The notes below the pieces were generated by a model. It did no database searches. It was not told the origin of the DNA and worked only from the letters and a program-made list of their open reading frames with translations. Shown here one piece after another: positions 16,753-63,091 of a stretch of DNA of 64,000 nucleotides (position 1 is the stretch's first letter; each line of letters opens with the position of its first letter). The DNA is from Lineus longissimus (Eukaryota > Nemertea > Pilidiophora > Heteronemertea > Lineidae). The stretch lies in NCBI RefSeq assembly GCF_910592395.1, contig NC_088315.1, positions 18,893,808 through 18,957,807 of the forward strand, given 5' to 3'. The translations under genes and the position numbers were made by a program.

Positions 16753-16792
16753 GTACAGCCTACTCCTGAGCTGTCATGGATTAGCAAAAGTG

Positions 16793-16912
16793 CCTCCAAA
16801 GTCTCTGCCAGGGGATGGAGACAGACTGTTGACACCACACCAAATTGAGGACCTGGCCCAGGATAGGGAAAGCTGGAGGAAGCTTGTGGCCGCCAGATGC
16901 GCAGTCGACTGA
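16793..16912 (+). pseudogene. LINE ORF2 C-terminal remnant (copy 2)
   Basis: Same 39-codon remnant as 11181-11300 (EDLAQDRESWRKLVAARC), followed by (GAT)n. It lies about 30 bp beyond the donor of the last recognised exon of the large gene. Confidence 0.65.
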
Positions 16913-16941
16913 TGATGATGATAAAGATTAGGCCTACTCAC

Positions 16942-18961
16942 GGAGACGAATCTCGGGGTTCCGTGGATGCGTCCGTCGATCTTGAATTCGCTTTTGTCTA
17001 ATAATACCGTGTCTGGAATAGGAAAGGCAAGGGATATAGTAAAAACCGTTTTCGAACAAATCTAGTAAAAAAGGATTTTGAACTTTTTTATCGCAAGATG
17101 GTAGAGGATCATCTCGGCGTGTTATTACTTACTATTCGTGTTGAAGTCCATGTCGTAATGGGCGACCAAGGCCTTCACATGTTGCTCTCTCCTCATGCCC
17201 ACCTTTTTTATGTAGTCGACGATGTCGGCATCTGAGAGATACCGGTCATAGATGCGGACCTGTAACCCAGAAAATATATGACCAACGTGGTAAATTACTC
17301 TGACTCTGTCCTATAGTCTCGGCTGATTGGTTGTGACTCAGTCCTTTTCACGGGCGATGCCATGACGTCCCAGGCCTGTATCTGGTTATGAATATGTCCT
17401 TAGAATGTGTATAGTGCAATGAATGGTCTCTGGCCCAGTTACAAAATCGGCGTCAGAGCCAAACGTCGGCATTAGCTCTACTAAGCGATACCACCTTTAG
17501 TAAATTTCTAACAAAACAGTAGCATTAGGACTTAACGCCAACGAAACTGCTGACAAAGATTGAGCAACCAGGCTCTGATCGTTTTTGAATGCGCTGGTCA
17601 GAATAGGCACAAAATTTACACCGCAGTGACTTTAGATGGACAATGTATTGTGCTCGCCGGTCACCGATCCAGAGGTTGACCGTGCTCAATGTTGCTTAAC
17701 TTTCAATCTGGGGCCAACGCGCCAACCACTGGGCCATAAAGGAATTCCCTCATGGCCGGCGGGTTAAGCCGTGCCATATACCTGGGGGTACTATACCGAC
17801 ATGGTATCATCACTTACATCCTCAATCTCTCCGAGAAAGAACGTACTCTTATCTTTCCCTAGGTATATAGTCGTGTCGTTATCCATTGTCTGAAAGAGGA
17901 GATATTCCTATTAACAAAACTATAAACGCCATCATTGTTCTTCAAATGAAATGTGGAGCAGAAACGTGGAAACGGATTGTAATGTAATATCCTGTTCCAG
18001 ATAGCCAACTGTGTCACCTACCCCTACATTTGTATCTTACCCAATTGTACAAAGCAACACCACGAAAAGCAGTTTTCTTTGTAGCATTCACAAAAAGGCT
18101 CAATCGCTGGTCTGAAAGATGAAAATTCTGTGTAAAATGATAATACTAGCGTAAGGGTTTTTGAGAGTGTGCAATTGATAATCAAATAATGTCTTGTGAT
18201 TTCTTTTCAAAATACGACGTATTATCTGGTCAAGTTCTCCTTGAAAAGAAGGGGTAGTGTCTAAACCTACAACCTACAAATACAGTGATTCGAAGTTACC
18301 GAACTATTGGTATTTCGAGTGTTATGTACTTACAAGCATATTCGTAATGCATGGTCACAACGGTCCACGCCCTGGCTGGGATTGACGTGTTTGATGTGTA
18401 AATACCGCTCCCGTATTTGCATTGGAACATCCCGTCTTTTACGAAGAGACACAGAGATTCGTTGGCTGAACACAAGATTGGTTGTCGGGTTGTGTTGTAA
18501 GGTGACGGCATCCTGACCCAGGCTTCGAGGGTGAAACTGGAACGTAAAGAAGAATGGCAGACGCTGGGAAGTAGAGTTGTCGTGTGTCTTTCCATTTTAA
18601 AAACAATGTCATTATGCCATTGTGCTCAGCTAAGCTTTTGTTGAACCAGAGTCTTTCAAATAAATCATTATTGTTTGAAAGACTGGTTGATAGAGCATGA
18701 GGTAGTTTGAACAGAGGTGAAAGACTCTGACATTACCTTCTGTTCAACCCAAGATTCTGGACCGTGTCCACCGCAACATAGTCACCCACGCCGTCCAGGA
18801 GTAGGGCCTTGTTATTCCTGTCCGCGCACGTGTTCCTCAAATGCGACCAGATCGCTCCAGGCTGTGTGTTCATGAACAGACCAACTCGGCCACCCTTCAG
18901 GACGTCATCGAAGATGGCACCCGAGTCTACGATCAGAGTTTCGCCCTGCTTGATGATGATT
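16942..18961 (-). CDS. Large gene, exons 55-60: LamG-like domain and start of a second, open 3' end
   Basis: Exon 55 ends [18 protein letters not shown], then 18536-18334 ([11 protein letters not shown]...[12 protein letters not shown]), 18111-18041 ([15 protein letters not shown]), 17889-17818 ([19 protein letters not shown]) and 17259-17133 ([17 protein letters not shown]). This is the LamG/jelly-roll order W-x-x-V...L-x-x-x-V-N...I-x-x-G...F-x-G-x-I-x-x-VRIY-x-R-x-L. Exons 59-60 then read [12 protein letters not shown] and [12 protein letters not shown], the typical opening of a second such domain. Exon 60 (17012-16942) ends phase 0 at GTGAGT. I found no continuing exon to the left, so the true C-terminus is unknown. 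Confidence 0.8.
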
Positions 18962-21900
18962 CTGTAAGATATTTAGGTTGTCAACAAAACTGAACACCAA
19001 CAACGTTATTCCATAGCAGCGGTACACTTTAGTTGACAACTTGAATACATACATGTATATAATGCGATGTCATCAATAATAAAAGCTCTTTTTCTCGATC
19101 CCGCCAAGAGCCATCAGTGCGCTTCTTGGCAATGCCGAGTTAAGTGGCTGAACTTGATTATGTTTTGTCTTCGCTTTATTTTGCCGACCAATGACCTGTG
19201 CGAGTCCTGCTCCCTGCTATCTGTATGCTGCCGTTCGTTCACCCGTCAATTCTCGTGGAATGTCCCACGAAGTCCCCAACATTGGGAATCCTCTGGGAGG
19301 GGCATGGCTCCCGAGAAAAGGGTATCGTGCCATGAGCAAAAAATACGATTCTTAGTCAGTTGGCCGGGCTGTTTCTTTGAGCTCCTTTCCTTCTTGCGGG
19401 CCTCACCTGATTGTGCCCACCGATGGCCTATGAGAGACCTGCCACCTGTAGGCTGTCTTACACTTCCACCCGGCAAGATTCGGGGCATGCCATACCAGGT
19501 CCACAACGTTGGCAGTCGTCTGGGCGTCCCACAGCGCCTGCACTAGGGTGGTACCTGGGCTCACGTTAAAGCTGATGCGCTGAAATGAAAGAAAGTTTCG
19601 TGGTGAGAAACTAATGGGGGGACGCACGAATTGAGTATCAGGAAGAGCACCGTCGTGTAATTTGCGAGAAAAGTTCCGATTCGGTGATGGTGTCCTAGAG
19701 ATGTACATTGTGTATGTAGAACTCCTAGCTAGAATACCATCGGGCCGGAGTTGTAATCCAACTGATTAACAACATGACCTTACGGTCATGGCAACATTCT
19801 GTTGGCTATCGTCAAGCTTACCTTGAGTTGAATTCCTTTGATGCCAGCCTTAGGACCAGTGAACTTTGGTTTATGCTTATGCGTCCACATGACAACGTAG
19901 AAACGTTTGCTGTTCTGGTAGGCGAACACGAAGCCGATATAACCATCGCACTTGTCACTGTTGACGAACATCGTTCCGTAGTAGTCCATTTCACCGAAGT
20001 GTGTCTTGGCTTGACGCGAAAAAGAAAATTTTAATTGGATACAATAAGAAATAAAGTTTGTTTATAAACCAAATACGAAGAAGCTGGACAATCAACTGTT
20101 TACATGTGGATCAAATCAATAGCAACTGATTTGAAAACATTTATGACTTGAGGTCGTTAACCTGTGAAGAATGAATGAGTCTCTGTTTCCCTGACCCTCA
20201 TTAGTCGGACCTCTCTCCTCTTGGCTAGGATCAGCCCGCAGATTCGCCGACAAGGACGCATCCAGGTCCACGGATAAACTCAAGGACTGTGTCCAATCAC
20301 ACCCAACTTGGCCTTAGGGTGCTTGGTAAGGTCTCTTACCGATGAACAAGGCAGGCATCTCCGTGTCCACCATTTGCCGGACCTCTTTCCCCTGCGCCAG
20401 GATCATCCACGCTGGCTTTGCCTTGATGGACGGGTCCAGGTCCACTGACCGATACTCCGTGAAGTTGGAGGAGTGAAGGAACTTGTTCTGGAGGCAATCG
20501 TCGAATTTGTCTTTATATCCATCGCCATCGTAGTCGCTCTCGCAGGCGTCACCGCGTTTGTTGTCTGGGAGTAAAAATTTCAGAAAAGAAGTTCTTGAGA
20601 TGATATCCCCTCCCCATGCCACGGTAGAACCCTGATACTCAATGACGGGTTTAAACGCCTGGCTCTACAGAGTGGAAAAAACTGACGACGATATTTTTTA
20701 CCACGCAGAGGCCAATAGCATTAGATCAGCAGAGTATTTCAATAAATCTATTTTAGAAGAAAAATATTACCAAGATATCTCCATTTGTTCCAATAACTTA
20801 GCTTCGGAGCCACTTTTGTGAAGAAAAGCCGGTAACAATTTCGAAGTTCTTTCGGCTTAACCACGGACGAGAGTTGCCGTGGCTTAAATTTCTCCCGATT
20901 TTGCTTCACGAAGTGAAGCAAAAACTACTGGATTAAAAACATCTTGGTCTCATGATTGGTTCCCGGTAGACTCTTTCACCAGTCACCTCAATTCACTCCC
21001 GCGGCGGTTATATTAGGTTCGAGGTTCCCTGGACTAGGTTCCCGGATTCGGGCGGCGAAAATAATTTGCGTGACGTCAAAATGACGTCTATATCTCCATA
21101 CTCACCATTGAGATCCTTCTGGTCTTTATTGCTGACGTACGGGCAGTTGTCAACATCGTTCTTCAAGCCATCATTGTCAATGTCCTCATCGCAGAGATCG
21201 CCAAGCCCGTCCCCATCCGTGTCAACCTGGTCACCATTTGGCACGGCAGCGCAGTTGTCCATCGTGTCAGTGATACCGTCGCCGTCCCTTGAAAAAAAGA
21301 AGTTTTCAATCTCATGTCTTTTTACGTGTTGGTTTCAAGCATAGGCCAATCAATGACATGCTCGTGACACGTGACATTTGTCGCGTGACCGGTGCAAATG
21401 ACAGCGTAAACCTGGTCTACATCTAAGAATTAATTTACTAAAGACGTCCGAATATTTATATATATATATATTTGTAGTTTTCGAAGAGCTCATTATCATT
21501 CAATACAGGAGTTAAAGCGAAGGACCTTAGCCATTTTACTTAATCACATACTCGTGTATACACCTCTCCATCGATTTTTGACAAGAAGTTTTGTAAAAGA
21601 AAATGAATCGAAAGCGAGCAATCGGCCATTGTTAATTATACGCATATTAATTCAAATATGACGCCATTGCTCTCCGATTGGCTAATGTGTTGTAAAGTCT
21701 CCAGCTCGCCAAACAGGGTAGATTTTTTACCTGTTTGGCAAGCTTGGCCGAACAGGGTGGCTTTTTAGTACTGTTTGGCAAGCGGGTCTCCAAACAGGAC
21801 AAAAAAAGATGCCTGTTCGGCGAGCGGCTTGCCAAATAGACCCGGCCTATTCTTACTTGTCCTTTCCATCGCAAGCATTGCCCACCCAATCCTGATCACC

Positions 21901-24900
21901 ATCCTCCTGTTTCGGGTTCTTCACTTTGATGCAGTTATCACAAGCATCGCCGACCCCGTCACCGTCAGTATCCTTTTGGTCTAAAATATGAATACAAAAC
22001 GGAATCAAAAAGGCTAATTTCACTAGTAAGAAGCATTTTTTTCGCTTTGGTCGCCGCTGCCAGTTATATGAATGAATGAATGAATGAATATAAGAATTTC
22101 TATAGCGCCTGAATTAAAAGAAAAACTTAAATTCTCAGGCGCTTTACAAAGCAAAACACTCCCTGAAAAGGTGTTGTTTCAGGAGAGTTTTGAAAATGTC
22201 TATGGAACCAGCAAGCCTGATGTTGGAAGGTAGCTGGTTCCATAGAACCGGTGATGACTTGTAAAAAGAACGGTCACCAAAGGTTTTGCACTTAGTGCGA
22301 GGGACCACCAAAGTTGGAGCAATAACAGAGCGGAGATGGTAGGTGGAATGGTGCCTCAGTCTGACCATATCACACACATACGCAGGTGCGACTCCATGTA
22401 TTGCCTTATATGTAAATAAAAGCACTTTGAAAACAATCCTGTATTTAACAGGAAGCCAATGGAGTCGCATGAGAACCGGTTATATGTATCGTATTAAGAT
22501 CAACTATTGTCATCGAATTAATAGTTGCGGAGTTTTTGTCGACCAAATTGCGTCTTAGATCGCTGTATGACATCATCACGAAATGAATGTATGCATGTAT
22601 GTATATACCATATTTAAATTTAAGCGCCCTTTTCAGATTATTATCCGTTCAAAGGCGCTTTTACAATATTAATAACATTGTCGAAAAAGATGAGTCTTTA
22701 GCATCGTCTGAAATGATGCAAGGCTCCTTGCTTGCCTGACCTCAAAAGGGAGCGCATTCGACAGAACAGCAGCGGAGAAAGAGAAGCAACGCTCTCCATA
22801 TTTGCTCCGGGCCCTTGGAACTTCCAGTCTGTTGTCATCAGCTGACCGAAGGTCTCTGCCTGGCCTATAGATATTAACTAGGCTTGACAGGTAACGTGCA
22901 GTGAAAGTGCAGAAGTAGAAAGGCGGTGATCTGATTCTCTAACGAGAGATTGGAGATTGCCCGCCCAGAGGAGACCAGATGCAACTTTTTCTGTCTGTAT
23001 CTTTGCGGACGCTTTTGGTAGTGTACTCTGATTGTGATGACGCATTGAACCATACCAGACCATACCAGTTCACATCGCTCTCGACGCCATGAATGACGTA
23101 GGCCTGAGTCTCTTTATGACGTAAGCACTACATCGAACCAGACCAGATCAGATTCGTGCGTTTACATGACAGACTTCTGATCCCGATCGATCTAGATCAG
23201 ATTAGTCCCGTGTAAACGGCCTCGTGTCAAAGTTGATCATTTGGTCAACACTCAAACAAACAGCCGTGACACAAAATGCTTTAAAATTGGTGAGCTTTTG
23301 TCTTACTCGATTTTTAAAACGCACTCAACTGACCAGTGTTATGAACCAGAGGGCAGTTATCTTTTGCGTTCAGGACCCCGTCGCCATCCTTGTCCGTGTC
23401 ACACACATCTCCAATCCCATCGCCGTCGACATCTGATTGGTCAGGATTGTGCGTGCTCTTACAATTATCGCACGCATCCCCACTTTTATCGCCGTCCGAG
23501 TCCTTCTGGTCGCGATTGTAGACAAATTGGCAGTTATCCTAGAATGCAAAGACGTTTTGCTTGAGAAGCCCAAATCTAAATTGTATACTTACTTTCAAGG
23601 TGTTCATTAGAAAGGGTAACAGTGACTTAATCCGATCAACAGTCCCATTTTACCACGCTGGAGCACATCACCTTGCTTACCCTTGCCGGTTCAGACTAAT
23701 CGACGCTCATGGAATCTGTTTCGTCGCGTTCGATCTTATCATACGGCCAGATAACGCTTCGATACGACAGAAGAACAATGGGAATTAAGGCGTAGGTGCG
23801 TGCGGGCTTTGTTTAAAGACAATAGATCGTGTAGGCTATTGGGCTTGGTGTACAGTACCCCAGGTATGGCACGGCTTAACCCGCCGGCCATGAGGGAATT
23901 CCTTTATGGCCCAGTGGTTGGCGCGTTGGCCCCAGAGTGGAAGTTAAGCAACGTTGAGCGCGGTCAACCTTTGGATCGGTGACCGGCGCGTACAATACAC
24001 TTGGCCTGATTGTTTTTGTTAAAGGACAGTTCTCGTTAAAACGCTTAAGAAATTGGTGTGCTATGAATGGCCCGGTAAAAACCTAAGGCGGGAATAAGCT
24101 TTCATTGATAAATCTAAGGAGTTTCAAGAACCCCAAATCACTAGTAAGGTTCATAGGATACTGGTCTGTCATTGGTTTAGGTCTCCTTATCATTTACATA
24201 CTCCAATATCCAGAAATATAACAATATTTACGATAACTTTTTATGTTTTTGACATTATTTGCGACCATTATCGATAACGCGCTCCATGCGGATTCGTAAG
24301 GTACTATTATAGTATAACACCATGCCTCGTCAAGTTACCTCGCTTGCGGAGCCACCTGGGTGACCCACGTGCTTAGACTCATAGTAAACATTGTAGTAGA
24401 AATATGCTAATGACTATCCCTTATATGGAAACCGAAGTAGTTGAATATTTTCACTGCAGGTGTCTCTGATAGTCACGTGGATTGACGAGCAATCTCCTTT
24501 AACTTCGAGGTAGGGGGAAATTGACGTAATGGAATTCAGATGTTGTTAGCAGCTAACACCCACGATATCATTTTCTCTCTTTTAAACCCTGTTTAGTTTG
24601 GCGACCGCTAAGTTTTAGTGACAGCAATTAAACTTGGCTGCACCCATAGTAGAGCCCTCGAGGTTCCGCTGACTTAGCGGTGGCGTATAGCGCGGGCTGC
24701 TAAGCCTATTAACTGACCAAACTTGGTGGCGCGCTATTAGATAACGGTGGCCGGGTTTAGTGGCCGCTATTAAAACCAGATAGCGGGTTTAGCGGCCGCT
24801 GAACCAGATAGCGGAGCTTTGAACAACCGGGCCCTGGTATTTTTATTTTGTCAACATACATCAAGGTCGTAGATGTAATCGTTGTCATCATCCGGGTCAC

Positions 24901-51900: not shown

Positions 51901-54900
51901 TCTTATCTAACTTCTTTGCTTGGGTAAGCATATTTTGAAGTTCACATGAAGTCGCCGAGAGTAAAAAGGTAAGCAATGACGACTTACAGCACCCTCAAGT
52001 CCTTCACACAGTCAAACGCCTTGGCGGGAAGTGTAGTCTCGTCGAGGAGGTTGGAGTTCAGTTGCAGTACCCTGAGTCGCTTCAGGGCACAGAACTCATC
52101 CGGGGTCACTAGCTTGATCAAGTTGTTTGCAAAGTTCCTGGAGACAAAGTAAGTTTAAAAAGAATTGGAAGCTCAGAGTAAAGTGTCAGTTAGAGACATA
52201 CATTTTTCATTTTTTGTCAGAAATATAAAAAGGTGCACAATTTTTCGGTTAATGTTCATGTACTTACAGTTCGTTGATGTCGGGCGTCGTCACCCATTTC
52301 TTATGTTGCCTCATTCGGATCACTCCCGCCGTGGCCATCAGGGGAGGGTACGCCTCTAGGCCGTACTCGGTCGGGTTGCGAATGCGATTGTTGTCCACAT
52401 GGCTAGAAAACAAGGCAGCTTGATTGATCTGATGAAAAACAACGGCCTATGGAACATCAACCGTACGGATGGGCCTAGGCTGCACTCTAAAACTAGGAGT
52501 GCTTCGAGGCACGCCTAGTGTCATAGCTCGCCGCTCACACGGTACCCCGCACAACACCCCTAAACAGGGTGCTGATACAGCACCCCATTATAAAGGGTGC
52601 CGTGGGTTAGGGTGCTATGAATAGGGGCGCCATAGCAAATAGGGTGCTATAACTCAGGGTGTGGTCGGAGCTGGGGGCGCCTTTGGGCCCTCCCCAAAAG
52701 AATTTAAGGGCCAAATATGCATTTTCCTGGCACCTGGACTTTGTGTCAACATCGTTGATTTCATCTATACTTACACAGATTTCAGATTGGGCCATTCCTC
52801 ATTTGACAAGGCTGGGTGTGGGAAAGTTTTCAGGGCATTTGTCCCCAGGTATCTGAAAGAAAGGTTAACGCACCGTGAAGAGGAAAGAAAGCGCTGCAAA
52901 TCTACGTGTATGACGATGACAATGAGGACAGTGATTATGGGCGCAGGGATCCAGTCGATGATGTCAGGCCGGTTGTTAATTGTTTTCCATGATCTTAGTC
53001 TAATTAGAATGATCAAATGTATTAGAGAAGATGTTTGAACAATTTACGACTTAAGTAAGAGGTATTTGAAACTGCTGATGTTGAAGAATCACCCCCATCC
53101 CCAATTTCAGATGTATTCCACAACGTTTTTTTGCGCCATCCCTTACAGAGTCGTCAATTTCTTCATGTTTGCCATGGAGCCCGACATGACGGCTGCCATC
53201 TTGGGAACTTGACTGTGTAGGATCAGAGTCCGAAGCTCGGGGTTGTTCTCGAAGCTTCTCCGTATTAGAGTCTGCATTCGATTACCGTGGAGATCTCTAC
53301 AAATAAAACAATATGGAAGTATGAGCTTCGCATAAGCCGAGTCTTTCAAAACAATTTATTTGAAAGACTCTGGCATAAGCTAATCGAGAAAAAATTATGT
53401 CATTTTTAAAATAGTTGCAACGACTCCGGTGCAGTTGCGTACGTCGTTATTAAAGATAGCGATTGATCAGCCAGATACCAGAGTTCTTCAATGTACATTA
53501 TGGATCACTTTATGTCCAGGGTTAAGCGTGTGTTTTCTGTGGGTTGTGGCCAGTGAGGCTGATAGATCGCTATAGAGTTGTCGATTCGGATATCATCACC
53601 AGCCTGTACCGCATCCGGGACCTCATGTCGTAATGGACGTCTATACTGGCAGAGAGAATATCCTTCGATCTGCTTGGAGAGTGTCGATAGGGCAGACACA
53701 TGTATTCATCCACCATCGGAAATGTGGCGCAGTCAAATAGAGCTTATCAAATGTCATGTTGTGATAAATACATGGCTGGGGTGGATCAAAGTGGAATTAA
53801 TTCTCAATCTGTGGTTTATTCCAAATCAACAGAGTCAGGCCATCACAGAAATATGCTTTTTGATAAATATGTTTCAGAAAATGTTGTCTGACTGGTCTGT
53901 TTAGAACCTGTAGGGCCATATCAATGCGCGAGTGTCGATTTGACGGATATGCTGTACAGAAAGTCATTGTTTCTCAGACAATTGGTATTGAAATGTTGTA
54001 AAATGTTATTATGATATTGGTAAAGGGTTCTTCTTAACACAAATACAATTTGGTGATGATTGATCGGCCCTGGGGGTACTTTTTCAACGAAAACTTATGT
54101 GCAGCAATGTACACGTAATGTACACAGTCTCTAATACAGAGCTCTGGCCTATAGAGACTGACAGCAGCGTATCGTTTACCGTAGGCCAAGAGGGAAGGTA
54201 AACCGGTGTACGGATGGACACATCACTTACAGGTGAACCAGCTGCGGCAGGTTACTGAATGCTCCAGGGGCGATGTACTGAAGCCTGTTGTCATGAAGCT
54301 CCCTGAAACGAGAAGAAGCATTTTAAAAGAGGTTCGTTTGACCACTGGCGTAAAGACCAGCGCCTTCTGTGTTTTTTGTGTCACAGGTGGATAGAAATAA
54401 ACTCTGGCTATAACGCCTGTAGATCAGCAGTGCATTTCGTCTCTATTCCCAGTAGTGATGGATAAGTAAGGGTCACTTTTGGTTCATGGACAATGTGATG
54501 GACAGCACAAAAGTTTTCAGTAAAAAACAATCTTTTTTGCAACTGGGAAATACATGGTAACACATTCCAAGATGGCAGAAAAACTAGTTTTTTCTTCTGA
54601 GATATACAGATCCAACTTTGTTTACGCCATTGTACGTCTCAAAGGTACATGTACACCAAAAGCGGGCCTACCAATTTCACTGAAGAAAAACCAAGGACAC
54701 GTAAAAGATAAACATTGCCAAGCAGCTTCGCCTGTACTTACAGTATCTTGAGGTATTTCAACTGCGAGAATGCACCCGGTTGCACATAATTAATCAGGTT
54801 ACGACTGAGGTTGCTGAAACGGAGACAGAGATTTTGTGACGGCCACTTAATAAAGTTTTAAGCCGTTTTCCCCTAAAAACGGTGCTTTCTACATGCTCAT

Positions 54901-57900
54901 AACTTTTTCCGATACGTAATCCGGGAGGAACGCTTTCAAAGCCAAATAGACATATCCTAGCCTGTCAAACCATGACATTTTCGTTGTACGTAATGCATGA
55001 TAATTTCAGGGTTTGGGGGATGATTTTTGACGTATTTTAACCCGCGAGTCAGCTTTTTCAACACGACGGGTTGAATGGAGCCTCAAAACCACATAAGTAA
55101 GCCAATTGGACTGAAACTTCATCATTTTCTTCATTCTAAACACACCTTATTCTCAATTTTAGAAAAGTTATATCTTAAATGGAAAATACCATTCAACTGG
55201 TACGGTGAAACCACGCATTGATCTCAAACTGAACTATTTTCGTGCGTGACCTGACGTTATGCTTAAAAGGCTTTTAGACTTGGTCTACGTGAAGTTCACG
55301 TCGTCACTCGTAAGAAGCTCCAAGGTAGAGCAGATAAAGTTATACATCAAGGCGCCAAACGGCGTCTCCCCTCACAGGGCATCGAAACTACTAGTTATAA
55401 TCAAGATTGTTAGCGAAATTAAATCATCGCTTGACAAACACAACCCAGGTTGTTCAAAAGCAAAATAGTTGCGTTATCCCTAACGGTTACGTTAAGTAAC
55501 CCTTGACGTTATCTCTTTCAGTTGACCCATTAAAAATTTCACGTTAAGACTGAACGACTCGGTTATAAACTAAGCTGGTTTTGACAACCCAGGCCTCTAA
55601 TCGTGTATATAATACATACTCACAAGTGCATTAGCTGACTTCGATCCCCGGACAAGCCCCTCAGATGCGGTATCGATATGGACTTCAATTTGTTTCTCTC
55701 AATATTTCTGGAACAAAGAAAAACATTTTTTTCAATATTACACATAGTTTAGTAACCATTTCGTCACCTAAGAGCCGAAACTGAATGATGTCGAGTTGTA
55801 ATTGAATGTATTTTATGAAAAATCAAAAATGGCGGTTTTTACTCATTGAAGAGTTAGGGGTGGAATATAGCAGCAAAAAACAGCCCTGAGTCGTTGTACT
55901 AACATGACCGCTAAACCCATTTACCGTACTCACAAAAACTTCAACTTCTTCATGTCTTGTACTGCATCTGATGGAAACTGGAAGAACTCGTTGATTGCCA
56001 AACTCCTGAGAGATTAGAAAGTGCATAGATACGATCAGTTCGCCTGGATATACGGATCCGAATCGGTAAAGCTACTGCTGAAACCTATCTGATTGAGATC
56101 AAGGTAATTAGCGACAACACTAATCGAGGCATGTTCAACTCCAATGGAAAATTCGTCCTGTTTTATGCTGGCGAAGCACCAAGAAATGTCCGCGCAAACT
56201 GTTTAGTTTTGTAACTCGTGTGCACATCCTCACATCAGATGGAATGATCAAGGATCAGAGAAGAACTCGACAAGAGAGGATAGAAATCCAGGTGCTGAAC
56301 ATGCAGGAAATGGAGACGAGTTGGTCGCGCTCTGAGAACACCAGGGGCCAGCATTGCGAGCCAGGCTCTCAGACGGAACCCACAAGGGGAGCGATAGGTA
56401 AGCAGATCCTACAGCACATGGAGGCGATCCTTAATAGATGAAGTCCCTGTCGCGTTCATGGAGGCACACTGAGGCAGCCGCAGAAGACCGTAAGGGTCGG
56501 AGGACGACGTATGCTCCGATTGGAGCCAGCGGGTGTAAGCCAAGTGAGTAGAGATTGTCAGGGTCAATTTGAGAAACGTTTAAGATGGTCAACAAATATG
56601 ATGCTTAATGGAGGAGCCCAAAAAAATTGAATTGAGATACTAATGGGTTTATAAAGCCATTAGAGCTCTCATCTCGCGCGTATACAGTAAGTGAGGAATT
56701 CATCGTTACTTACAGATACTCCACGTTGGTTCCTGTGAAGTACTTGTGAGGCAACCAGTAGAGTTTGTTCTGGACCAAGGATCTGAAAGATAAACAGGAT
56801 CTCAATTACTGATCATTCCCAAGAAATTCAGGACGGAAACGACACATGGACACAATGGAGTGAAATGTATGAAGAAAGAAAAAGGTAATATTAAAAATGA
56901 CTATAAAATGTATCGGAAGAATACGTACATTTCCTTAAGTGTGGATGGCCACGTGTAACCCGCGTGTAGAGTGTTCATCGACAGTTTGCAATCATGAAGC
57001 ATTCTGGAGAAAGAAAAATATATCAAAATAAACATTTAACCTCAAAATACTTGCAGAGGGGATACCAGCAGGAGAAGGGGGCCACTTGGTGGACTCCAGG
57101 CGCTTATGAGTACCATTCTCCGCGCAGATCGATTGATATTCTCTCTCTGCCAACACTGATCGCCATCACGCCGCGTGGTCACATGTGCGTGACGAGACCT
57201 GAATCAATCAACCAATCAGCGATCGGTCATCCCCAACAAAGCTTAGACAGAAAACACTCGCACAAGACAAGACATCAAAGGGTGGAATGTGTTTTGTAGG
57301 TTGTGAGTGTCAATTATTACGAGGTATGTCACTCTGGTATGCTCAGGCACCCATGATTCTCTCCAAGAATCTTGGAGTGGTGGGTCCAAAATGGTCGCCC
57401 GTGTTAGCAGTCACGGAACGACGTCATCTGTTCAATAAATCTAGTTCAGGGGAAAGGAAAACTACGCTCTACTTACACTTTTGCCACCTTTGTCTTGGAG
57501 AGATTTGGGATACCAGTCTTGATAGATGTCTTCCACATTTCACTGAATTCAAAGAAGAAGGTGATATAATGTATGACATACCGGTGTTACCTCTCTGGTT
57601 GTTCCCTATAGTTTAATGTTACACTCAAGAGTTAAAATTTTAATAACCCCCTTTAAAAAGTGATGATTTAAGGCATGGTTCTTTAAATTACATTGGCGAG
57701 GAAGCAACCTGCCGGTGCACACGACGGCTGCCGAGAAAAAAAGGAGACCCGTCCATCAGCACTGATCATGTGCTGCGCGTGCCTTCATGGCAACCGTCCC
57801 GCGGAGACATCGGGTTCCCACACCACACTGTGCCGCGGAAAAACATCAGAATTTGACCTCAATGGCATTCGTCAATCCTTAGCTTTGAAAAGGTATTGAC

Positions 57901-60861
57901 TTACAGAACAGCCAAGTTTGGTGCTTTATCGAATGCATCGGTGGTGATGTTCTCCAGGCTTCTGACATTGTAAACAGTCCTAGAAACACAAGAATCAGGG
58001 CGACGTCACTAAAAATGCTGAATGTTATTAGAACTTAGAAAAAAGGGTTACAGAGGGGTGCTATGGCGGTTCAAAGACCCCCAAGGTGCTCATTGGAACC
58101 CTCGGAGAAGGAAGCCTAGGGTGCCCTGGGGTGCTAATTTTAAATGAAAAATTATCAGAGAAATCACACATTTGTTGACAAATAACTCCGTTCAGTTGAT
58201 GCATGCGCCGGTCACCGATCCAAAGGTTGACCGCGCTCAACGTTGCTTAACTTCCACTCTGGGGCCAACGCGCCAACCACTGGGCCATAAAGGAATTCCC
58301 TCATGGCCGGCGGGTTAAGCCGTGCCACATACCTGGGGATACTATACAATGCACATGTTTCAGTCTTGTCAGAATGTCGATGCAAAATGAATGTTTTATG
58401 AATTTGGAAACATATATAAAGGTGTTAACACAAGATAAGGGGTGCAACATAGCACCCTACAACACCCTTCTGGAGGAGTGCTACCACGGCGACAAAATGA
58501 GTCTCCAAAACAGTTTTGTTCCTTCACTATTGGTTTTATTGTGTAACTGAAGAACCCCGCTGCTGAAGAGTAGGCGAGTCTGCAAACGTTCGTCCTGAGG
58601 ATTTGTCGTGAAAGATACCAGGAACCCTGCCAAACTCAGTAAAATACGCGTTCTTGAAAGCTACTTACATGGATCTGACACCTGCAGTTAGCGTTTCATT
58701 GGTGATGTTCGGAAAAGAGATGTGACTGAGTTGTCTGCAATTAAAATAAGGCCGGGTCTATTTGGCAAGCCGCTCGCCGAACAGGCATCTTTTTTGTCCT
58801 GTTTGGAGAGCCGCTTGCCATTAGCACCAAAAAGCCACCCTGTTCGGCCAGCCGGGCTTGCCAAACAGGTAAAAAATCTACCCTGTTTGGCGAGCTGAAG
58901 ACTTTACTTTAATATTAATGAGTTCGGCTCTCCATTCAGGACAAGAAAAAGTCGCTGTTTTGGTAAGCCGGGCTTGCCAAGTAGTCACTTCCTTAAAATA
59001 ATGGGGAGGTTAAGAAACATCACGAGAATGAGAACGATCTGTAAAATTCATATTGCGTTAGAGTGGTCCGAGGAGATTTCAAAACAAACAAACCCATATT
59101 GAATTGCGACTATGATTTACGAAGACGATTTATTTGTATTCGCGTACCTTTGATCCATTCGATTGCAAGAATTCGTAATCATTATTCATAACCGTTGTTT
59201 GTAAGGGATGCGGAAACCGGCCGATATTGGTGGGCAGAGCTGATACTCCACGTTCAATATACACAAAGTCAAATTAGCAAAATTTGAAGGATGACGGTAC
59301 TCACAGTTGTCCCGCCGAGCAGCCTTTGATGATACCCTTGGCCCTGTCGTAGCAGCCTCCTTCGTACATGAAGTTGATCACGGGATTGCCTTCCGATAGC
59401 ATATACGGCGCTGCCACCCACGAGCTTGGGAACGACCACATCCCGTAGAACATGTTGCCCGCTTGAACATAAGAGAAGCTGTGTTTACATTTAGTAACGC
59501 CTCGAGGTAGATGCCATTTTGGATTTTCGGAGGTCACATTTTTGCTACAGATTTCTGCCAATAATTTCTTTCTCCCATATTGTTTTTGGATGGCAATTCC
59601 TCGAGCCACGAGAAAGATGTGAACATAACGTGTTTGTTTGTAATTTTGGCGAATAATTGCTTTCGAAAGGCTTGCAATGCGTCTGGACTTAACAGTATGC
59701 AGCATGCTCCCAAAACAAAGTTGTACTCTAAAATGTATACACATGGGTAGAAAGAATAGAAAAAGGGTCGTACCTCCATCCGGGTATTTGATTCCCTGGG
59801 GTCTGTACAAACTATTCCAATAGGAGGCGCCACTGCACATGCAATGAGATGGCGCTCCGTACCATCGCTGCATGCAAAGCAGACATCAACACAAGCGTCG
59901 CCACGTCAAGATATTCCATCATGTTCAAACAATTTCGCCGAATCCGGGTTATTTATCAAGTTTGTAGACTTTTTGAAAACAAAATTTTACTCGCCGAGAT
60001 AACGGCGTGAGCTGATCAGCGAATTAATTCCAAGAAAGCACTTCAAAAAAATATATGAAAACGGGTTCCAGAATAATTCATACAAGCTACAGTTCATTTT
60101 GAGATGATCACATACGTTTAGCGAACATGACAGTTAGCTTAATTGTACCGTACTGCATGATGTATTCATTTGTTTTTAAAAACGTGAAAAATAAGATATA
60201 CACAAGTAGGAAATAGTTTCTCGGGAAAAAAATCAAAAGTTTTAGCCTCGAAAACTGTCTAATCTATAGTCGATAAGATTTAAAACGTCGATATTACGTC
60301 GTTATCGGTGATAAATTATGATATGAACCCGTTCCTAAAAGTTTTTCTCGGTGCGCTATCGATCGGCATTTTTTGAATAACTGTCGCGTCGTGACCATAT
60401 TCATGCACAACGGATGTCCAAATAGTGTGCCATTTTACCGTGGCGAAATAATGCCTCCTCTTGCAAAAAAAGACTAAAATGTTTGGGGGCAGTGAAGTAT
60501 TTCGTATAAAAAAACTTTTTTCTTGCTAAAAATGACTAAAATGGCCGGGAAAAGTTACAAAGACTATTCATTGCGCTTCAGACGGCTTGTTTCTCACACA
60601 CGATTCCTTTACAAATTGATTGGAAGTTCTCCCATTAAAAAGTGGCGATATAACGCATAATGTTCTCACTACGTGGCGATACAATATCGCGCAACGTTAC
60701 TTACCTCCATCCGGGTAGTTTATTCCCTGGGGCTTGTACAAACTATTCCACCAGGAGGCGCCACTGCAGCGACAATCAGCTGACCCGTGCCACCAGTAAT
60801 TCTGGCCGAAAGCAGGCAAAGCACAAACGAGCACGATGGTCACCAAAACAAGATATCCCAT
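16942..60861 (-). CDS. Giant secreted LRR / fibro-slime / discoidin / thrombospondin protein (at least 60 exons, at least 2,926 codons)
   Basis: One minus-strand gene. The start ATG at 60861-60859 opens a signal peptide ([20 protein letters not shown]). I traced 60 exons with GT-AG borders, and every junction is phase-compatible, giving 8,778 nt of open frame. Approximate residues: 1-20 signal; 21-104 Cys-rich N-domain; 105-1003 LRRs; 1004-1059 LRRCT; 1060-1187 FN3; 1188-1435 fibro-slime; 1440-1719 cadherin-like; 1720-1881 discoidin; 1882-2232 Cys-rich and EGF; 2233-2500 TSP type-3; 2500-2718 TSP C-terminal; 2720-2902 LamG-like; then the start of a second LamG. No transmembrane segment is visible. 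By family knowledge this is a calcium-binding matrix/adhesion protein. It resembles 'mega-thrombospondins', but LRR plus TSP in one chain is the striking point. The 3' end was not found. Contiguity is inferred from phase and domain continuity, not from a transcript. Confidence 0.85.
17655..17800 (-). mobile_element. SINE-like repeat with 5S rRNA-like and tRNA-like parts (copy 1)
   Basis: Reverse-strand copy of the element described at 23847-24003: on the reverse strand it contains TTATGGCCCAGTGGTTGGCG and GGTCAACCTCTGGATCGGTG. It is located in an intron of the large gene. Confidence 0.7.
18737..20564 (-). CDS. Large gene, exons 52-55: thrombospondin C-terminal lectin-like domain
   Basis: Exons 20564-20340 (end), 20009-19822, 19579-19407, 18961-18737. 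Matches to the TSP_C family are continuous: [132 protein letters not shown]. The WK-type beta-sandwich ends at the Cys of RNTCADR. All junctions are in phase. This is the conserved thrombospondin core and fixes the family of the gene. Confidence 0.95.
20340..27872 (-). CDS. Large gene, exons 47-52: thrombospondin type-3 calcium repeats
   Basis: Exons 27872-27765, 24967-24860, 23538-23334, 21980-21857, 21287-21106, 20564-20340. The first opens [20 protein letters not shown], equivalent to the C-x-x-GWAGNG...CG-x-D-x-D start of the TSP wire. Next come repeated DNCP-x-x-x-N-x-DQ-x-D-x-DGD-x-x-GD-x-CD motifs (e.g. [20 protein letters not shown]). The set looks complete for a TSP type-3 domain with aspartates intact, so it should bind many calcium ions. 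Exon 52 runs into the C-terminal domain ([15 protein letters not shown]). Confidence 0.93.
21690..21847. mobile_element. Foldback repeat 'CTGTTTGGCAAGC' (copy 1)
   Basis: Repeated CTGTTTGGCAAGC / GCTCGCCAAACAGG half-sites in both orientations. An inverse copy lies at 58753-58910. Its right edge is only a few bases from the donor of exon 50 (21857). Confidence 0.75.
22068..22470 (-). pseudogene. L2/CR1-type LINE 3' end
   Basis: About 109 codons without a stop read [20 protein letters not shown], then [20 protein letters not shown] and [10 protein letters not shown], the standard C-terminus of L2/CR1/jockey-clade reverse transcriptase ORFs. It is followed on the minus strand by GCGCTATAGAAATTCTTAT and an (ATTC)n tail, as expected for L2/CR1 elements. 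5'-truncated and not autonomous. It lies in an intron on the same strand as the large gene. Confidence 0.85.
22610..22720. repeat. Fragment with LINE/SINE-tail-like 'AAGCGC' motif
   Basis: TTTAAATTTAAGCGCC and AGGCGCTTTTACAAT resemble the 3' tails of L2-like elements (compare 22080-22150 and 43400-43480). Only a short piece, so assignment is tentative. Confidence 0.4.
23045..23222. mobile_element. Short MITE related to 43751-43874
   Basis: It shares CCAGACCAGATCAGAT and the terminus CCCGTGTAAACGGCC with the 124-bp element at 43751. The left end is less clear. Confidence 0.5.
23847..24003 (+). mobile_element. SINE-like repeat with 5S rRNA-like and tRNA-like parts (copy 2)
   Basis: It contains TGGCCCAGTGGTTGGCGC, which fits a tRNA/pol III box A, followed by GAAGTTAAGCAACGTTGAGC and CTTTGGATCGGTGACCGG, which match the 5S rRNA region from helix III to loop E/helix IV. 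Three copies are in the window (also 17655-17800 and 58204-58350), all strongly alike. I read it as a pol III-derived SINE family; the 5S resemblance is from memory of 5S sequence. Confidence 0.72.
24580..24840. repeat. Degenerate repeat of 'TAGCGG' half-sites
   Basis: Many TTAGCGG / CCGCTATT / CCGCTAAG half-sites in both orientations, forming potential hairpins. Not coding. Probably a decayed foldback element next to exon 48. Confidence 0.5.
26114..27739 (+). CDS. Rhodopsin-class GPCR, third member (two exons), nested in the large gene
   Basis: Exon 1 ends at 26436 before GTACGT; exon 2 is 27013-27739 after TTTGTTTCAG; junction phase 2. The start may be the ATG at 26132 (343 aa) or an in-frame ATG at 26114. 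Features: [11 protein letters not shown] in TM1, [10 protein letters not shown] in TM2, MTLDRACAV after TM3, [11 protein letters not shown] in TM6, [20 protein letters not shown] at the end of TM7. Homologous to the tandem pair at 9526 and 14995 but distant, and with an intron they lack. The pair may be retro- or intron-loss derived, or this gene gained the intron. It lies antisense within the intron between exons 47 and 48 of the large gene. Its stop is only 25 bp from exon 47. Peptide-receptor-like; ligand unknown. Confidence 0.82.
28521..28879. mobile_element. CGCCAAC-type MITE, full copy, TTA target duplication
   Basis: Terminal inverted repeats AGCCCGTAGCACACTAGCC and GGCTAGTGTGCTGCGGGCT, 359 bp in total, flanked by TTA on both sides (28518-28520 and 28880-28882). 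TTA duplication and TIR form fit PIF/Harbinger non-autonomous (Tourist-like) elements. Lies 35 bp beyond the donor of exon 46. Confidence 0.85.
28915..31920 (-). CDS. Large gene, exons 42-46: Cys-rich GCC2/GCC3-type and EGF modules
   Basis: Exons 31920-31751, 31520-31358, 30694-30375, 29766-29518, 29064-28915. The first two hold Cys spacing of ephrin-receptor-like/GCC2_GCC3 units ([27 protein letters not shown]). Exon 44 adds [10 protein letters not shown] and [17 protein letters not shown], then [20 protein letters not shown], an EGF-like end with a calcium-binding start. Exon 45 contains [12 protein letters not shown] and [18 protein letters not shown] (cbEGF). Exon 46 is [13 protein letters not shown]...C. 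Phase-0 borders from exon 44 onward are like those of thrombospondin EGF exons. Confidence 0.85.
29145..29165. repeat. (GT)n/G-run simple repeat
   Basis: GTGTGTGTG followed by a run of about 13 G. A second G-run occurs at about 32600-32613 and a C-rich run (C17 then CCCCCA units) at about 47237-47275. Confidence 0.9.
29262..29455. repeat. Tandem repeat, ~4 units of ~60 bp ('GCGTCAGTCGCTCT')
   Basis: Each unit has GCAAATGCGTCAGTCGCTCT, a variable TATA run, and ATTGAGATGAACT. Intronic and non-coding. Confidence 0.85.
29810..29995. repeat. 'CCTCTCTATTAAGGACACC' repeat, copy in large-gene intron
   Basis: It contains GGACACCCTCGGGACTGACA and GTGTCCTGATAGC, then TTAGTAGAGAGGTGTC. Same family as 1620 and 4137. 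Confidence 0.7.
30115..30275. repeat. Dispersed repeat shared with 44690-44860
   Basis: AAGCCCGCTCGCACCTAG, then AAATTCACATTGTT and a GGGCAAATCTT block occur in both places in the same order. No coding frame in common. Confidence 0.6.
30795..30955. repeat. Tandem repeat, ~4 units of ~38 bp ('CAGCCGTGACC')
   Basis: Units of CACAGCCGTGACC..GGACAGAGTCACAA. Intronic. Confidence 0.85.
32374..37936 (-). CDS. Large gene, exons 39-41: discoidin (F5/8 type C) domain
   Basis: Exons 37936-37817, 36061-35853, 32530-32374. It begins with [21 protein letters not shown], continues [20 protein letters not shown] and [19 protein letters not shown], then [10 protein letters not shown], and closes with [21 protein letters not shown]. 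This is the canonical C...G-x-I...S...GAW...PW-x-x-V-x-L...QGR...Y-S-x-D-G...R-x-x-P...E-x-x-GC order. The middle exon's start was set at TTGCTTCCATTGTAG because only it keeps the frame. The intron between exons 40 and 41 contains the B-box gene on the other strand. Confidence 0.87.
32670..33310. repeat. Pair of ~120-bp direct repeats (32688-32810 and 33185-33308)
   Basis: Both contain GACAGTTCCACGCACTGG or GGACTGG, then AAAATCGCCATCTC, ACCCCAGACGTCGCC and TTCACCGAATCGTGAGATTG. Located in the intron upstream of the nested B-box gene; function unknown. Confidence 0.75.
33608..35494 (+). CDS. B-box (TRIM-like, RING-less) protein, nested in the large gene
   Basis: 628 aa from ATG 33608, which follows a CTTTCTTTCCAG acceptor at about 33590, so an untranslated 5' exon is likely. 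An earlier in-frame ATG at 33569 lies before that acceptor and is less likely. Residues ~20-70 form a first B-box-like zinc unit (CTPCKF...[17 protein letters not shown]). Residues ~78-115 form B-box 2 ([19 protein letters not shown], then [12 protein letters not shown]). A helical coiled-coil region follows (~120-250). No RING finger precedes the B-boxes, and the C-terminal ~370 residues match neither NHL, PRY-SPRY nor filamin domains that I can see. Probably a cytoplasmic adaptor of the TRIM-like class without ligase activity of its own. It lies antisense in the intron splitting the discoidin domain. AATAAA at 35803 is a likely poly(A) signal. Confidence 0.85.
   Translation: MASQTPRPTKNLILSDGEDRKEPCTPCKFQDKKSPAVSACNTCRNYLLCRSCQVKHNQNANTKDHIVVALIDQDSEQITLCTKHLGRSRSFLCVECDQLICDVCIDIEHGDHSLKSIEGITKEIRVAMEPLISSVSDDIDQEIEAIKSSENGIIKKVETHAEGLIAAINSEKDRVVSEIKIYGCTESTTELAKVRSVLGEVLRRGEEALSSKIENIHHYNAILKTKSDLEKAKAENTSFITKLSGKRKSLAMATFVPSKIRIDNLLGDFVVAPADTEEKVFTMKQLERWTIKPCCKVGPVVILPNGCAFLCSRAQSEMTSMQIYTTGNPLREVSCGNVVNLFVTNDRIACVTSSQELFSLPLIDLEKKVGHELSSQVRIDGYFCAKTKKGNNVVVEGLPPNYSGTFFNVKFRKGAFYSTFGISDLAINIGPASFIASTSIGWIKYLDMLLIHDVRIGEVLAYTLEVRNEIKTDSPLTLKYSLEKRSSISSPLPGFYIVEIYCTDNLAYLYLKKGNQDDKTIKAAPVKIYEAQFIDNHWKMTSLKLVKPDGDELCSLENDQQMKIAASDDKLLCLVYNPTPLGKDKESLVPMMDITCYVGSKSSALSQTTHAPSGSPVAGCSSSGPQRK
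36310..36840. repeat. 54-bp tandem repeat ('GTGACGCATATATCAGTAG'), degenerate toward the right
   Basis: Clear units start at 36372, 36426, 36480, 36534 and 36589 (GTGACGCATATATCAGTAG..CTTTTGTTCAATAC), becoming diverged to about 36840. Not related in sequence to the other 54-bp array. Confidence 0.88.
36957..37402. mobile_element. ~440-bp element with GACAAGACCAC terminal inverted repeats (copy 1)
   Basis: Left end AGACAAGACCAC, right end GTGGTCTTGTCT. The body is nearly identical to 62572-63014 (e.g. GTTTGACCGCGACGCATCAA, CGCCCCCTATTACCAAATTA). Non-coding MITE-like element. Confidence 0.8.
37690..37800. repeat. 'CGCGAAAAT' palindromic repeat
   Basis: TCGCGAAAATTT / CGCGAAATCCGCG half-sites in both orientations. 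A related stretch is at 62045-62215. Confidence 0.55.
38244..39901 (-). CDS. Large gene, exons 35-38: cadherin-like repeats
   Basis: Exons 39901-39788, 39449-39265, 38798-38629, 38497-38244. Sequence [29 protein letters not shown] contains the DxNDNxP calcium motif and the preceding V-x-V-x-DG. A second repeat starts IAYPALQP...[14 protein letters not shown] (A-x-D-x-D-x-G-x-N). A further unit is [21 protein letters not shown]. About one and a half to two cadherin-type units, with some calcium-site residues missing. Phases fit. Confidence 0.78.
39985..40170. repeat. 'CCTCTCTATTAAGGACACC' repeat, diverged copy
   Basis: AACCTCTCTATTGCGGACATC at the left and AAGAGGTGTCCGCAAATGGA at the right. 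Same family as at 1620. Confidence 0.65.
40714..44551 (-). CDS. Large gene, exons 29-34: fibro-slime (PA14-like) domain
   Basis: Exons 44551-44488, 44087-43884, 43358-43269, 42985-42807, 41323-41226, 40951-40714. Diagnostic runs are VTFYDF, then [15 protein letters not shown], then [14 protein letters not shown], then HYHNFG and [17 protein letters not shown], and finally [14 protein letters not shown]. This is the order seen in fibro-slime domains (WY-x-x-xPG-x-N, FFP-x-DG-x-G, NF-x-F...G-x-D-x-x-V-x-IN, Y-x-L-D-x-F-x-AER). That family is a PA14-like beta-barrel known from Dictyostelium and bacteria and uncommon in animals. It is probably a carbohydrate or adhesion module. The last exon continues into a cadherin-like strand ([16 protein letters not shown]). 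Confidence 0.85.
41828..41907 (-). tRNA. tRNA-Leu (anticodon TAG), copy 1
   Basis: The cloverleaf reads from GGCAGCTTGGCCGAGCGGTC (box A TGGCCGAGCGGTC) through anticodon arm CTGGT-TTTAGGC-ACCAG (anticodon TAG), a class II variable arm, and GGTTCGAATCC (box B), ending AGCTGTC with discriminator A. The 7-bp acceptor stem pairs GGCAGCT with AGCTGTC with one G-T pair. 80 nt, no intron. Lies within an intron of the large gene on the same strand. Confidence 0.95.
42275..42715. mobile_element. CGCCAAC-type MITE, full copy (inverted), TTA target duplication
   Basis: AGCCCGCAGCACACGAGCC at the left and GGCTAGTGTGCTGCGGGTT at the right, with TTA at 42272-42274 and 42716-42718. It contains the longest interior of the four copies (441 bp). 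Confidence 0.85.
43400..43480. repeat. Fragment with 'AGCGCTTT' LINE/SINE-tail motif
   Basis: TAATAATAATGATACT microsatellite followed by AGAGCGCTTTTCACATTAG and AAAGCGCTTTACAATTA. Typical of short L2-like or SINE tails. Confidence 0.5.
43751..43874. mobile_element. 124-bp MITE with AGGGCCGTTTAAACGG termini
   Basis: Left AGGGCCGTTTAAACGG, right CCGTGTAAACGGCCCT, flanked by AAT on both sides. It sits 10 bp from the donor of exon 30 (43884). Confidence 0.8.
44690..44860. repeat. Dispersed repeat shared with 30115-30275
   Basis: See the copy at 30115; this one carries AAGCCCGCTCGCACCTAGG and GGGGAAATCTTGATCACATT. Confidence 0.6.
44973..45863 (-). CDS. Large gene, exons 27-28: fibronectin type III domain
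   Basis: Exons 45863-45743 and 45235-44973. The frame runs [19 protein letters not shown], then [18 protein letters not shown], then [13 protein letters not shown] and [18 protein letters not shown]. The Trp in the B strand, the YxCRV core and the closing S-x-P-x-x-V/PPEPP match an FN3 domain. Boundaries are phase 1 in and phase 1 out, typical of a shuffled FN3 module. Confidence 0.8.
45340..45490. repeat. Hairpin-rich 'GCGATCGCAGTCGCG' repeat with TTCGC..GAAAACTCCCT end
   Basis: Short inverted GCGATNNCAGNCGC sites plus a GCTCTGCGAAAACTCCCTA end shared with 46737, 48697 and 63092. Intronic. Confidence 0.5.
45960..46095. repeat. Dispersed repeat 'GGTGTAGAAGTAGAAAATG' (three copies)
   Basis: Present here (inverted), at 39045-39150 and at 51415-51500, each with ACATTTTCTACTTCTACACC or its complement and a GTATTTTGACGGATG block. 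Non-coding. Confidence 0.65.
46150..46316 (-). CDS. Large gene, exon 26: LRR C-terminal cap (LRRCT)
   Basis: The exon opens [19 protein letters not shown] and contains [10 protein letters not shown] and LYPC, giving the N-P-x-x-C-x-C...C...C pattern of LRRCT caps. It enters in phase 2 and leaves in phase 1, ending the phase-2 LRR series exactly where the LRR domain ends. Tolerant but clear match. Confidence 0.88.
46490..46569 (-). tRNA. tRNA-Leu (anticodon TAG), copy 2
   Basis: Identical over all 80 nt to the gene at 41828-41907: same box A, TTTAGGC anticodon loop, box B GGTTCGAATCC and acceptor stem. It lies in the intron between exons 25 and 26 of the large gene. The flanks also share TATGACAGCTG, suggesting recent duplication. 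Confidence 0.95.
46737..46888. mobile_element. Foldback 'GGAGTTTTCGCAAA' element (copy near exon 25)
   Basis: GGTTTCGCAACCC..., a central GTTCGACATC/GAGCTCGAACAA pair and GGGGGCTTTGCGAAATCTCCC. Related copies are at 48697-48828 and 63092-63330. Confidence 0.65.
46905..58734 (-). CDS. Large gene, exons 3-25: about 37 leucine-rich repeats
   Basis: All exons enter and leave in phase 2. Exons: 58734-58669, 57979-57905, 57542-57477, 57003-56929, 56782-56714, 56005-55934, 55707-55624, 54813-54742, 54302-54231 (single repeats, 66-84 nt); 53296-53147, 52852-52775, 52402-52268, 52137-51988, 51787-51638, 51292-51227, 50509-50366, 50063-49920, 49649-49494, 49095-48952, 48661-48521 (mostly double, 135-156 nt); 48268-48062 (triple); 47780-47637 (double); 47141-46905 (triple). 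Repeats follow LxxLxLxxNxIxxIxxGAFxxL, e.g. [16 protein letters not shown]. The first five are poorly conserved, and exon 14 (52402-52268) has an irregular second half. This is extracellular LRR architecture like LGR, Slit or peroxidasin-type proteins. The U-turn donor of exon 21 was placed at GTGCGT because only that gives phase 2. Confidence 0.88.
48697..48828. mobile_element. Foldback 'GGAGTTTTCGCAAA' element
   Basis: Left AGGGAGTTTTCGCAAATACC, right TTGCGAAAACTCCCTA, with inverted CCCATTGTTCGAGCTCC and CATCGAACCATGG near the centre. Confidence 0.75.
52480..52680. repeat. 'AGGGTGCTAT' short-period repeat
   Basis: Repeated AGGGTGCTAT / CAGCACCC half-sites. Similar blocks at 58040-58140 and 58440-58500. 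Intronic and non-coding. Confidence 0.6.
58204..58350 (-). mobile_element. SINE-like repeat with 5S rRNA-like and tRNA-like parts (copy 3)
   Basis: Reverse-strand copy, the closest of the three to the one at 23847. Located in the intron between exons 3 and 4. Confidence 0.72.
58753..58910. mobile_element. Foldback repeat 'CTGTTTGGCAAGC' (copy 2)
   Basis: Starts GGCCGGGTCTATTTGGCAAG and mirrors 21690-21847 in inverse order. It begins 19 bp from the start of exon 3 (58734), so it abuts the acceptor tract. Confidence 0.75.
59305..60861 (-). CDS. Large gene, exons 1-2: signal peptide and Cys-rich N-terminal domain
   Basis: Exon 1 (60861-60705) encodes the signal peptide and then [19 protein letters not shown]...YPDGG, ending phase 1 at a GTAAGT donor. 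Exon 2 (59461-59305) continues [15 protein letters not shown]...[10 protein letters not shown] and ends phase 2. The domain of about 85 residues is rich in Trp, Tyr, Gly and Ser with four Cys, and I do not recognise the family. It may act as an LRR N-terminal cap, but it lacks the usual LRRNT Cys pattern. A possible acceptor (TTTTAG) just above the ATG at about 60878 suggests a further 5' untranslated exon upstream. Confidence 0.75.
59774..59922 (-). pseudogene. Duplicated first exon of the large gene, frame broken
   Basis: This stretch in intron 1 aligns with exon 1 along its length. ATG-ATG-GAATATCTT resembles the signal-peptide start, [18 protein letters not shown] resembles [18 protein letters not shown], and the donor GGAG/GTACGA is at the same place. 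The signal frame and the domain frame are offset by one base, so the copy cannot be translated through as exon 1 is. The domain part is well conserved, so it may be a recent break. Alternatively it may be an internal exon entered through the CAG before CGATGG (phase 0), which would need a different, unseen first exon. Confidence 0.65.
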
Positions 60862-63014: not shown

Positions 63015-63091
63015 TGTATATATTGTATCAAGAGGCCGCCATCATGGGCTAGCCATATTTCCGAGGAATATATCGAGGGACTCGAAATTCG

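Follow-up and report, generated by a model that had tools for sequence, protein, structure and literature searches.

Mega-thrombospondins (mega-TSPs) are defined by a signal peptide, about 1,000 residues of LRRs, a central cadherin, the C-terminal region of thrombospondins and a second ConA-like domain (PMC6526912, Shoemark et al. 2019). In bilaterians the middle of the protein typically adds Fn3, discoidin and a growth-factor-receptor Cys-rich domain, and the Hydra protein has a PA14 domain (PMC6526912). Members are found from ctenophores to invertebrate chordates and typically exceed 2,700 residues (oyster 2,910, Acanthaster 2,889 and Ptychodera 2,920 residues, with amphioxus and Ciona also represented; PMC6526912, Table 1). 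According to the same paper, mega-TSPs are without the DDD motif in TSP_C, an RGD at type-3 repeat 7 is reported for a single mega-TSP, and knock-down in Hydra blocks head regeneration but not foot regeneration; Toll-like receptors are brought up as an analogy. This was the one paper that named mega-TSPs in our literature search, which also returned no paper with both ‘fibro-slime’ and ‘thrombospondin’ (most subscription journals lay outside its scope); for variant spellings, none appeared among the 10 of 1,738 papers listed. The term ‘mega’ is absent from a sea anemone matrisome study (PMC12549020).

Here we describe a locus of the nemertean Lineus longissimus, contained in a stretch of 64,000 nucleotides (the window; contig C8:18893808-18957807 of a 391-Mb assembly in 30 contigs). 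As judged from the genomic sequence, it is very probably a single gene for a bilaterian-type mega-TSP, that is, a predicted secreted matrix glycoprotein of about 2,900 residues, and the assignment to the mega-TSP family, taken by itself, appears close to certain. The family was compared by its published description. Like mega-TSPs, the product has a signal-peptide-like start, an LRR arm of about 900 residues, a middle with cadherin, discoidin and Cys-rich parts and a weakly Fn3-like stretch, then EGF domains, type-3 repeats, TSP_C and a second ConA-like domain, and it agrees with them in length and in having no DDD. Unlike mega-TSPs as described, it has a Fibro_Slime match above the cut-off, a term with 0 occurrences in PMC6526912, and it has the RGD at type-3 repeat 7 that is reported there for one member only. 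An initial annotation of this DNA had mentioned that extended mega-TSP forms exist in invertebrates, missing their connection with LRRs, and had called an LRR arm on a thrombospondin uncommon or undescribed. That judgement does not hold, since N-terminal LRRs of about 1,000 residues define mega-TSPs (PMC6526912). The architecture itself is already known, and the gene is a well-preserved further example of it.

Results

An exon-chaining program with splice-site matrices and codon log-odds, trained on the exons found, was applied to the minus strand. The resulting model runs from 60861 to 16942 through 60 exons (8,829 nt, 2,943 residues), is stop-free and has compatible phases throughout; the donors are GT in 60 of 60 cases and the acceptors AG in 59 of 59 (58 counted and that of exon 31 read separately). 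The 60 minus-strand GT-AG exons of agreeing phase reported in the initial annotation were thus reproduced in count and ends. Its continuous frame stands too, with the length corrected from 8,778 nt; the missing 51 nt suggest that a short form of exon 57 was presumably used there. That 20-nt form was rejected because Laminin_G_3 then scores 55.4 bits, compared with 72.0 for the same piece with the 71-nt form. Exon 31 (90 nt) raises Fibro_Slime from 40.3 to 49.5 bits on the same piece, and a candidate 54-nt exon at 35091-35038 was rejected, given that F5/8 type C scores 71.1 bits with it and 78.4 without. An alternative donor for exon 35 at 39737 (+51 nt) is also in frame and may be the one used.

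The exon chain scores 712 on the strand of the gene (68 exons, some weak and outside the gene), 73.7 on the opposite strand and 2.2-11.4 in eight dinucleotide shuffles of the window. The scoring was trained on this very gene, and the independent evidence therefore comes from Pfam and PDB matches. Domains were called on pieces of successive gene models by Pfam, NCBIfam and PDB searches together with reading by eye (Table 1). The start, ATG at 60861, was picked by inspection, as the gene finder itself did not choose an ATG. With flanks added, the chain extended onto weak exons both upstream and downstream; hence the 5′ end was placed by eye and the 3′ end is provisional. Positions 60800-61500 gave nothing in a scan for promoters of bacterial type, a method inapplicable to an animal gene.

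Table 1 Features of the window, with positions counted from its first nucleotide and residues numbered on the 2,943-residue model.
Feature	Position	Strand	Residues	Description	Match
Exon 1	60705..60861	-	1-20 (signal-peptide-like)	ATG, hydrophobic signal-peptide-like stretch, start of Cys-rich LRR N-cap	
Exons 2-26	46151..59461	-	102-992	LRR arm, 33 marked repeats, then LRRCT-like cap	LRR_8 6.2e-86
Exons 27-28	44974..45863	-	1042-1168	Weak fibronectin-III-like region	fn3 E 0.073, 13.7 bits, below the Pfam cut-off of 25
Exons 30-34	40862..44083	-	1192-1431	Fibro_Slime region	TIGR02148 4.4e-13, 49.5 bits, above the curated cut-off of 45
Exon 31	43358-43269	-			
Exons 34-38	38347..40861	-	1432-1702	Two cadherin-like stretches, DVNDNCPE in between	Cadherin (Pfam) 1.2e-8, 35.7 bits (cut-off 28.8)
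Exons 39-41	32396..37934	-	1738-1891	Discoidin (F5/8 type C)	F5_F8_type_C (Pfam) 6.6e-22, 78.4 bits, above cut-off
Intron 40	35852-32531	-		3.3 kb	
Exons 41-44	30516..32395	-	1892-2069	Cys-rich, ephrin-receptor-like region	Ephrin_rec_like (Pfam) 1.1e-5, 25.5 bits (cut-off 23.1)
Exons 44-47	27834..30503	-	2074-2262	EGF-like domains	EGF_CA 2e-15
Intron at EGF/type-3 junction	27764-24968	-		2.8 kb	
Exons 47-52	20485..27833	-	2263-2518	Thrombospondin type-3 repeats	TSP_3 6e-44
Exons 52-55	18820..20481	-	2520-2734	TSP_C (L-lectin/ConA-like)	TSP_C 1.5e-64
Exons 55-59	17209..18807	-	2739-2894	Second ConA-like domain	Laminin_G_3 7.8e-20, 72.0 bits
Exon 57	18111-18041	-			
Exons 59-60	16942..17181	-	2904-2943	C-terminal stretch that looks like the beginning of another LamG-type domain	By eye
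Exon-1 copy	59919-59771	-			
Exon-59 copy	11647-11517				
Duplication	5160-11752 and 12217-17367			Exons 59-60 and a GPCR gene are both duplicated in it	
GPCR ORFs	9454-10548 and 14923-16008	+		Rhodopsin-type, closely similar to each other	7tm_1 1e-17 and 7e-17
TRIM-like ORF	33560-35494	+		644 residues stop to stop, single exon	zf-B_box 1.3e-8; TRIM28 4.7e-8
Proline-rich ORF	1906-3069	+		387 residues stop to stop	
tRNA-Leu genes	41828-41907 and 46490-46569	-		TAG anticodon, 80 bp each	
Dispersed repeat	16295-16728, 28574-28874 and 42280-42713				
Dispersed repeat	36958-37409 and 62570-63019				
Dispersed repeat	21692-21859 and 58738-58907				

At the N-terminus, hydropathy reaches 2.26 over residues 1-19 as counted from the start codon chosen by inspection. 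The tandem LRRs that follow are in keeping with the arm of about 1,000 residues that characterises the family. The arm itself served to train a weight matrix, which marks 33 places within it (that at residue 102 being doubtful), none elsewhere in the protein and 0-3 in 20 shuffled arms. The initial figure of about 37 repeats is attainable if degenerate ones are counted. The arm closes with a CDC...C...C pattern that we take to mark an LRRCT-like cap (residues 990-1040). The matches of the arm (best 60 of 300) include IGFALS, LRRC32 and LGR4/5 at 1e-29 to 6e-25 and TLR3 at 1e-22. With these secreted or receptor proteins and LRIG1 it shares extracellular LRRs of about 24 residues and an LRRCT-like cap, a general LRR similarity (best 1e-29) that does not imply orthology. 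A second copy of exon 1 lies nearby, identical in 115 of 160 columns (72%, 11 gaps) and out of frame, the frame being shifted ahead of a terminal part that is otherwise well preserved and has a GTAC donor.

In the middle region, the Fibro_Slime stretch is without any Pfam match at E up to 1, which may be why this module has so far gone unnamed in mega-TSPs. The discoidin domain is complete only across intron 40, and a Pfam scan of the first gene model at 1e-3 gave zero sushi matches.

The thrombospondin core, claimed to be complete in the initial annotation, is indeed so: EGF domains, type-3 repeats and TSP_C are all matched, and thrombospondin-2 aligns across the three at 2.3e-149 (PDB match). 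The domain search likewise confirmed LRR_8, Fibro_Slime, cadherin, F5/8C, TSP_3 and TSP_C in the product. Alignment of the core to canonical thrombospondins (TSP-2 2rhp/1yo8, TSP-1 1ux6 and COMP 3fby) requires small gaps only, but here an LRR arm and a cadherin/discoidin middle precede the core, an additional ConA-like domain lies behind it, and the DDD motif is absent, its aligned place being occupied by CDG (residues 2587-2589). Canonical thrombospondins have 840-1,152 residues and a single C-terminal L-lectin-like domain, whereas the product has 2,943 residues and two ConA-type domains. Its RGD (residues 2495-2497, exon 52) lines up with the one in type-3 repeat 7, in a loop without extension relative to the TSP-2 alignment. 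By gap-free counting from the RGD, the positions of the three Asp that bind calcium close to the RGD in TSP-1 (D902, D904 and D906; PMC6526912) read D, N and N, and because these acidic residues are partly replaced by Asn the loop may behave unlike that of TSP-1.

Across the genome, TSP_C gave six matches at two loci, the window and a locus on contig C2 (8/8 candidates scored). The C2 gene is a canonical-type thrombospondin, 46% identical to the mega-TSP over 422 residues; it has DDD, and its type-3 repeat 6 bears an RGD where repeat 7 reads LGD. It was modelled with the same program, and hence with the same biases, and is incomplete on its N-terminal side. In the aligned core, five of the seven mega-TSP introns have the same place and phase in the C2 gene, which has nine there: those before CKNGWAG, DNCPLTAN and DNCQFVYN, that at KD|K before DGDGITD and that in front of NKRGD. 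Introns 49 and 52 are unmatched, and one more shared intron, before GSYRCG, was found by reading just outside the counted range. The shared introns take in both sides of the 2.8-kb intron at the EGF/type-3 junction. Such common positions support descent of both genes from one ancestral TSP core.

At the 3′ end, what the initial annotation had called a LamG start comprises one complete Laminin_G_3 domain, and after it what may be the beginning of another, recognised by eye and without a Pfam match. Exon 59, if unspliced, meets a stop two codons beyond its donor (..NTNSK*, stop at 17127-17125), so that the protein would finish behind a second ConA domain that is complete. Left unspliced, exon 60 would read on to a stop at 16774. 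About 47 kb downstream yielded no continuation of the putative third LamG domain: in positions 1-16941 of the window a satellite ORF is the sole candidate exon above threshold, and the 30 kb beyond the window contain two low-grade exon candidates without LamG likeness and the weak exons chained there. Over the whole minus strand, one LamG motif recovers the known domain (one place, 18804), and a second is uninformative since an intron splits the known domain and the motif misses it. A search of the whole genome for Laminin_G_3, in which 150 of 242 candidates were scored, listed none from the window as far as C8:18750043 (a distance of about 144 kb), which is no evidence of absence because the search misses the window's own intron-split LamG. 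The plus-strand reading just past exon 60 resembles, by eye, the end of a retroelement protein.

The 3′ exons lie in a duplication whose pieces are 92, 94 and 96% identical and whose arrays differ in length; the exon-59 copy has lost its GT donor. This may be a true duplication or two haplotypes assembled. The GPCR ORFs, of which that at 9454-10548 has opioid receptors as its best PDB matches (6.5e-8), were duplicated along with exons 59-60 and with 42-bp and 54-bp repeat arrays.

Discussion

The locus provides a nearly full mega-TSP gene structure, with the genome's one other TSP_C gene for comparison, and its Fibro_Slime match and RGD are two concrete testable details. A plausible mechanism, which in its entirety we consider about evenly balanced between right and wrong, would have the secreted protein act as a multivalent linker. 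Ligands in the matrix or on surfaces, whether carbohydrate or protein, would be bound by the curved LRR arm together with the discoidin/fibro-slime middle. Receptors on the cell surface would be engaged by the calcium-loaded type-3/ConA core, whose RGD in type-3 repeat 7 is a candidate site for integrins. Lacking the DDD motif, the protein should be retained in the matrix by a route other than that of canonical thrombospondins. Fibro_Slime and PA14 folds are similar, and the PA14 domain of the Hydra protein may be the same module as the Fibro_Slime region here. A bolder joint reading, tentative and on balance doubtful, is that a fibro-slime (PA14-like) module for binding glycans, conserved but not yet named, is common to bilaterian mega-TSPs and that in this lineage the RGD and DDD motifs are divided between the two paralogues: the mega-TSP, with RGD at repeat 7, has no DDD, and the canonical gene, with LGD at that repeat and its RGD at repeat 6, retains DDD.

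The initial annotation had proposed a new matrix or immune-type recognition protein, of which the matrix part stands and the immune part finds no specific support. Carbohydrate is a possible ligand of fibro-slime, discoidin and ConA-type domains, and recognition of microbial patterns by the LRR arm, in the manner of Toll-like receptors, would suit both this capacity and the presence of TLR3 among the many matches of the arm. IGFALS, LRRC32 and LGR4/5 nevertheless outscore TLR3 among the best 60 of 300, the hydropathy scan found no hydrophobic stretch other than the N-terminus, and the Pfam scans found no signalling domain. Toll-like receptors appear in PMC6526912 as an analogy, and the mega-TSP function published there lies in regeneration; an effect on the Hydra head and not the foot fits a matrix patterning cue better than an immune receptor. 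An immune recognition protein is thus very unlikely, and we favour a matrix glycoprotein.

That the locus is one gene, as initially proposed, is supported by the unbroken chain, by a domain order known from an existing family, by the TSP-2 match across the EGF/type-3 junction (with a 3-residue gap nearby) and by the shared introns. Two or three adjacent genes (LRR; fibro-slime/cadherin/discoidin; thrombospondin) read as one would be highly improbable, even though the model was built from genomic sequence and contains two large introns. The one at the EGF/type-3 junction belongs to the intron positions common to the canonical-type gene, and the other has to be spliced out to give a complete discoidin domain. 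At zero break cost, with 1 unit each charged for start and stop, the chain remained unbroken from 60763 to 17012. Rewarding a break with 5 units produced a single one, between exons 43 and 44 (31520/30683) in the Cys-rich part, and with 10 units the gene fell apart everywhere. All exon phases agree, and the same domain order is found as one protein in several phyla, that of Nematostella having been sequenced from cDNA (PMC6526912).

A decaying gene, with its 3′ end in a duplicated, repeat-rich stretch holding exon 59-60 copies, a lost donor in the exon-59 copy, a broken exon-1 copy (72% identical, out of frame) and no further LamG exon found downstream, is barely credible given that the main copy has 60 of 60 exons open with canonical splice sites and that the stop two codons after the exon-59 donor would terminate the protein behind a complete ConA domain.

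Other features of the window and genome

The proline-rich ORF near the start of the window has no Pfam match at E up to 1 and no NCBIfam match at E up to 0.1. The TRIM-like ORF, with B-box zinc fingers, is nested antisense in intron 40. Two identical tRNA-Leu genes lie in introns on the strand of the host gene, and copies of the dispersed repeat families, mostly in the introns of the gene, are 91-96% identical. Laminin_G_3 stretches number at least 150 across the genome (150 of 150 scored, from 242 candidates); they are mostly open frames of about 200-280 residues and often clustered, for example at C14:10.36-12.63 Mb, C17:5.55-5.65 Mb and C8:18.65-18.75 Mb.
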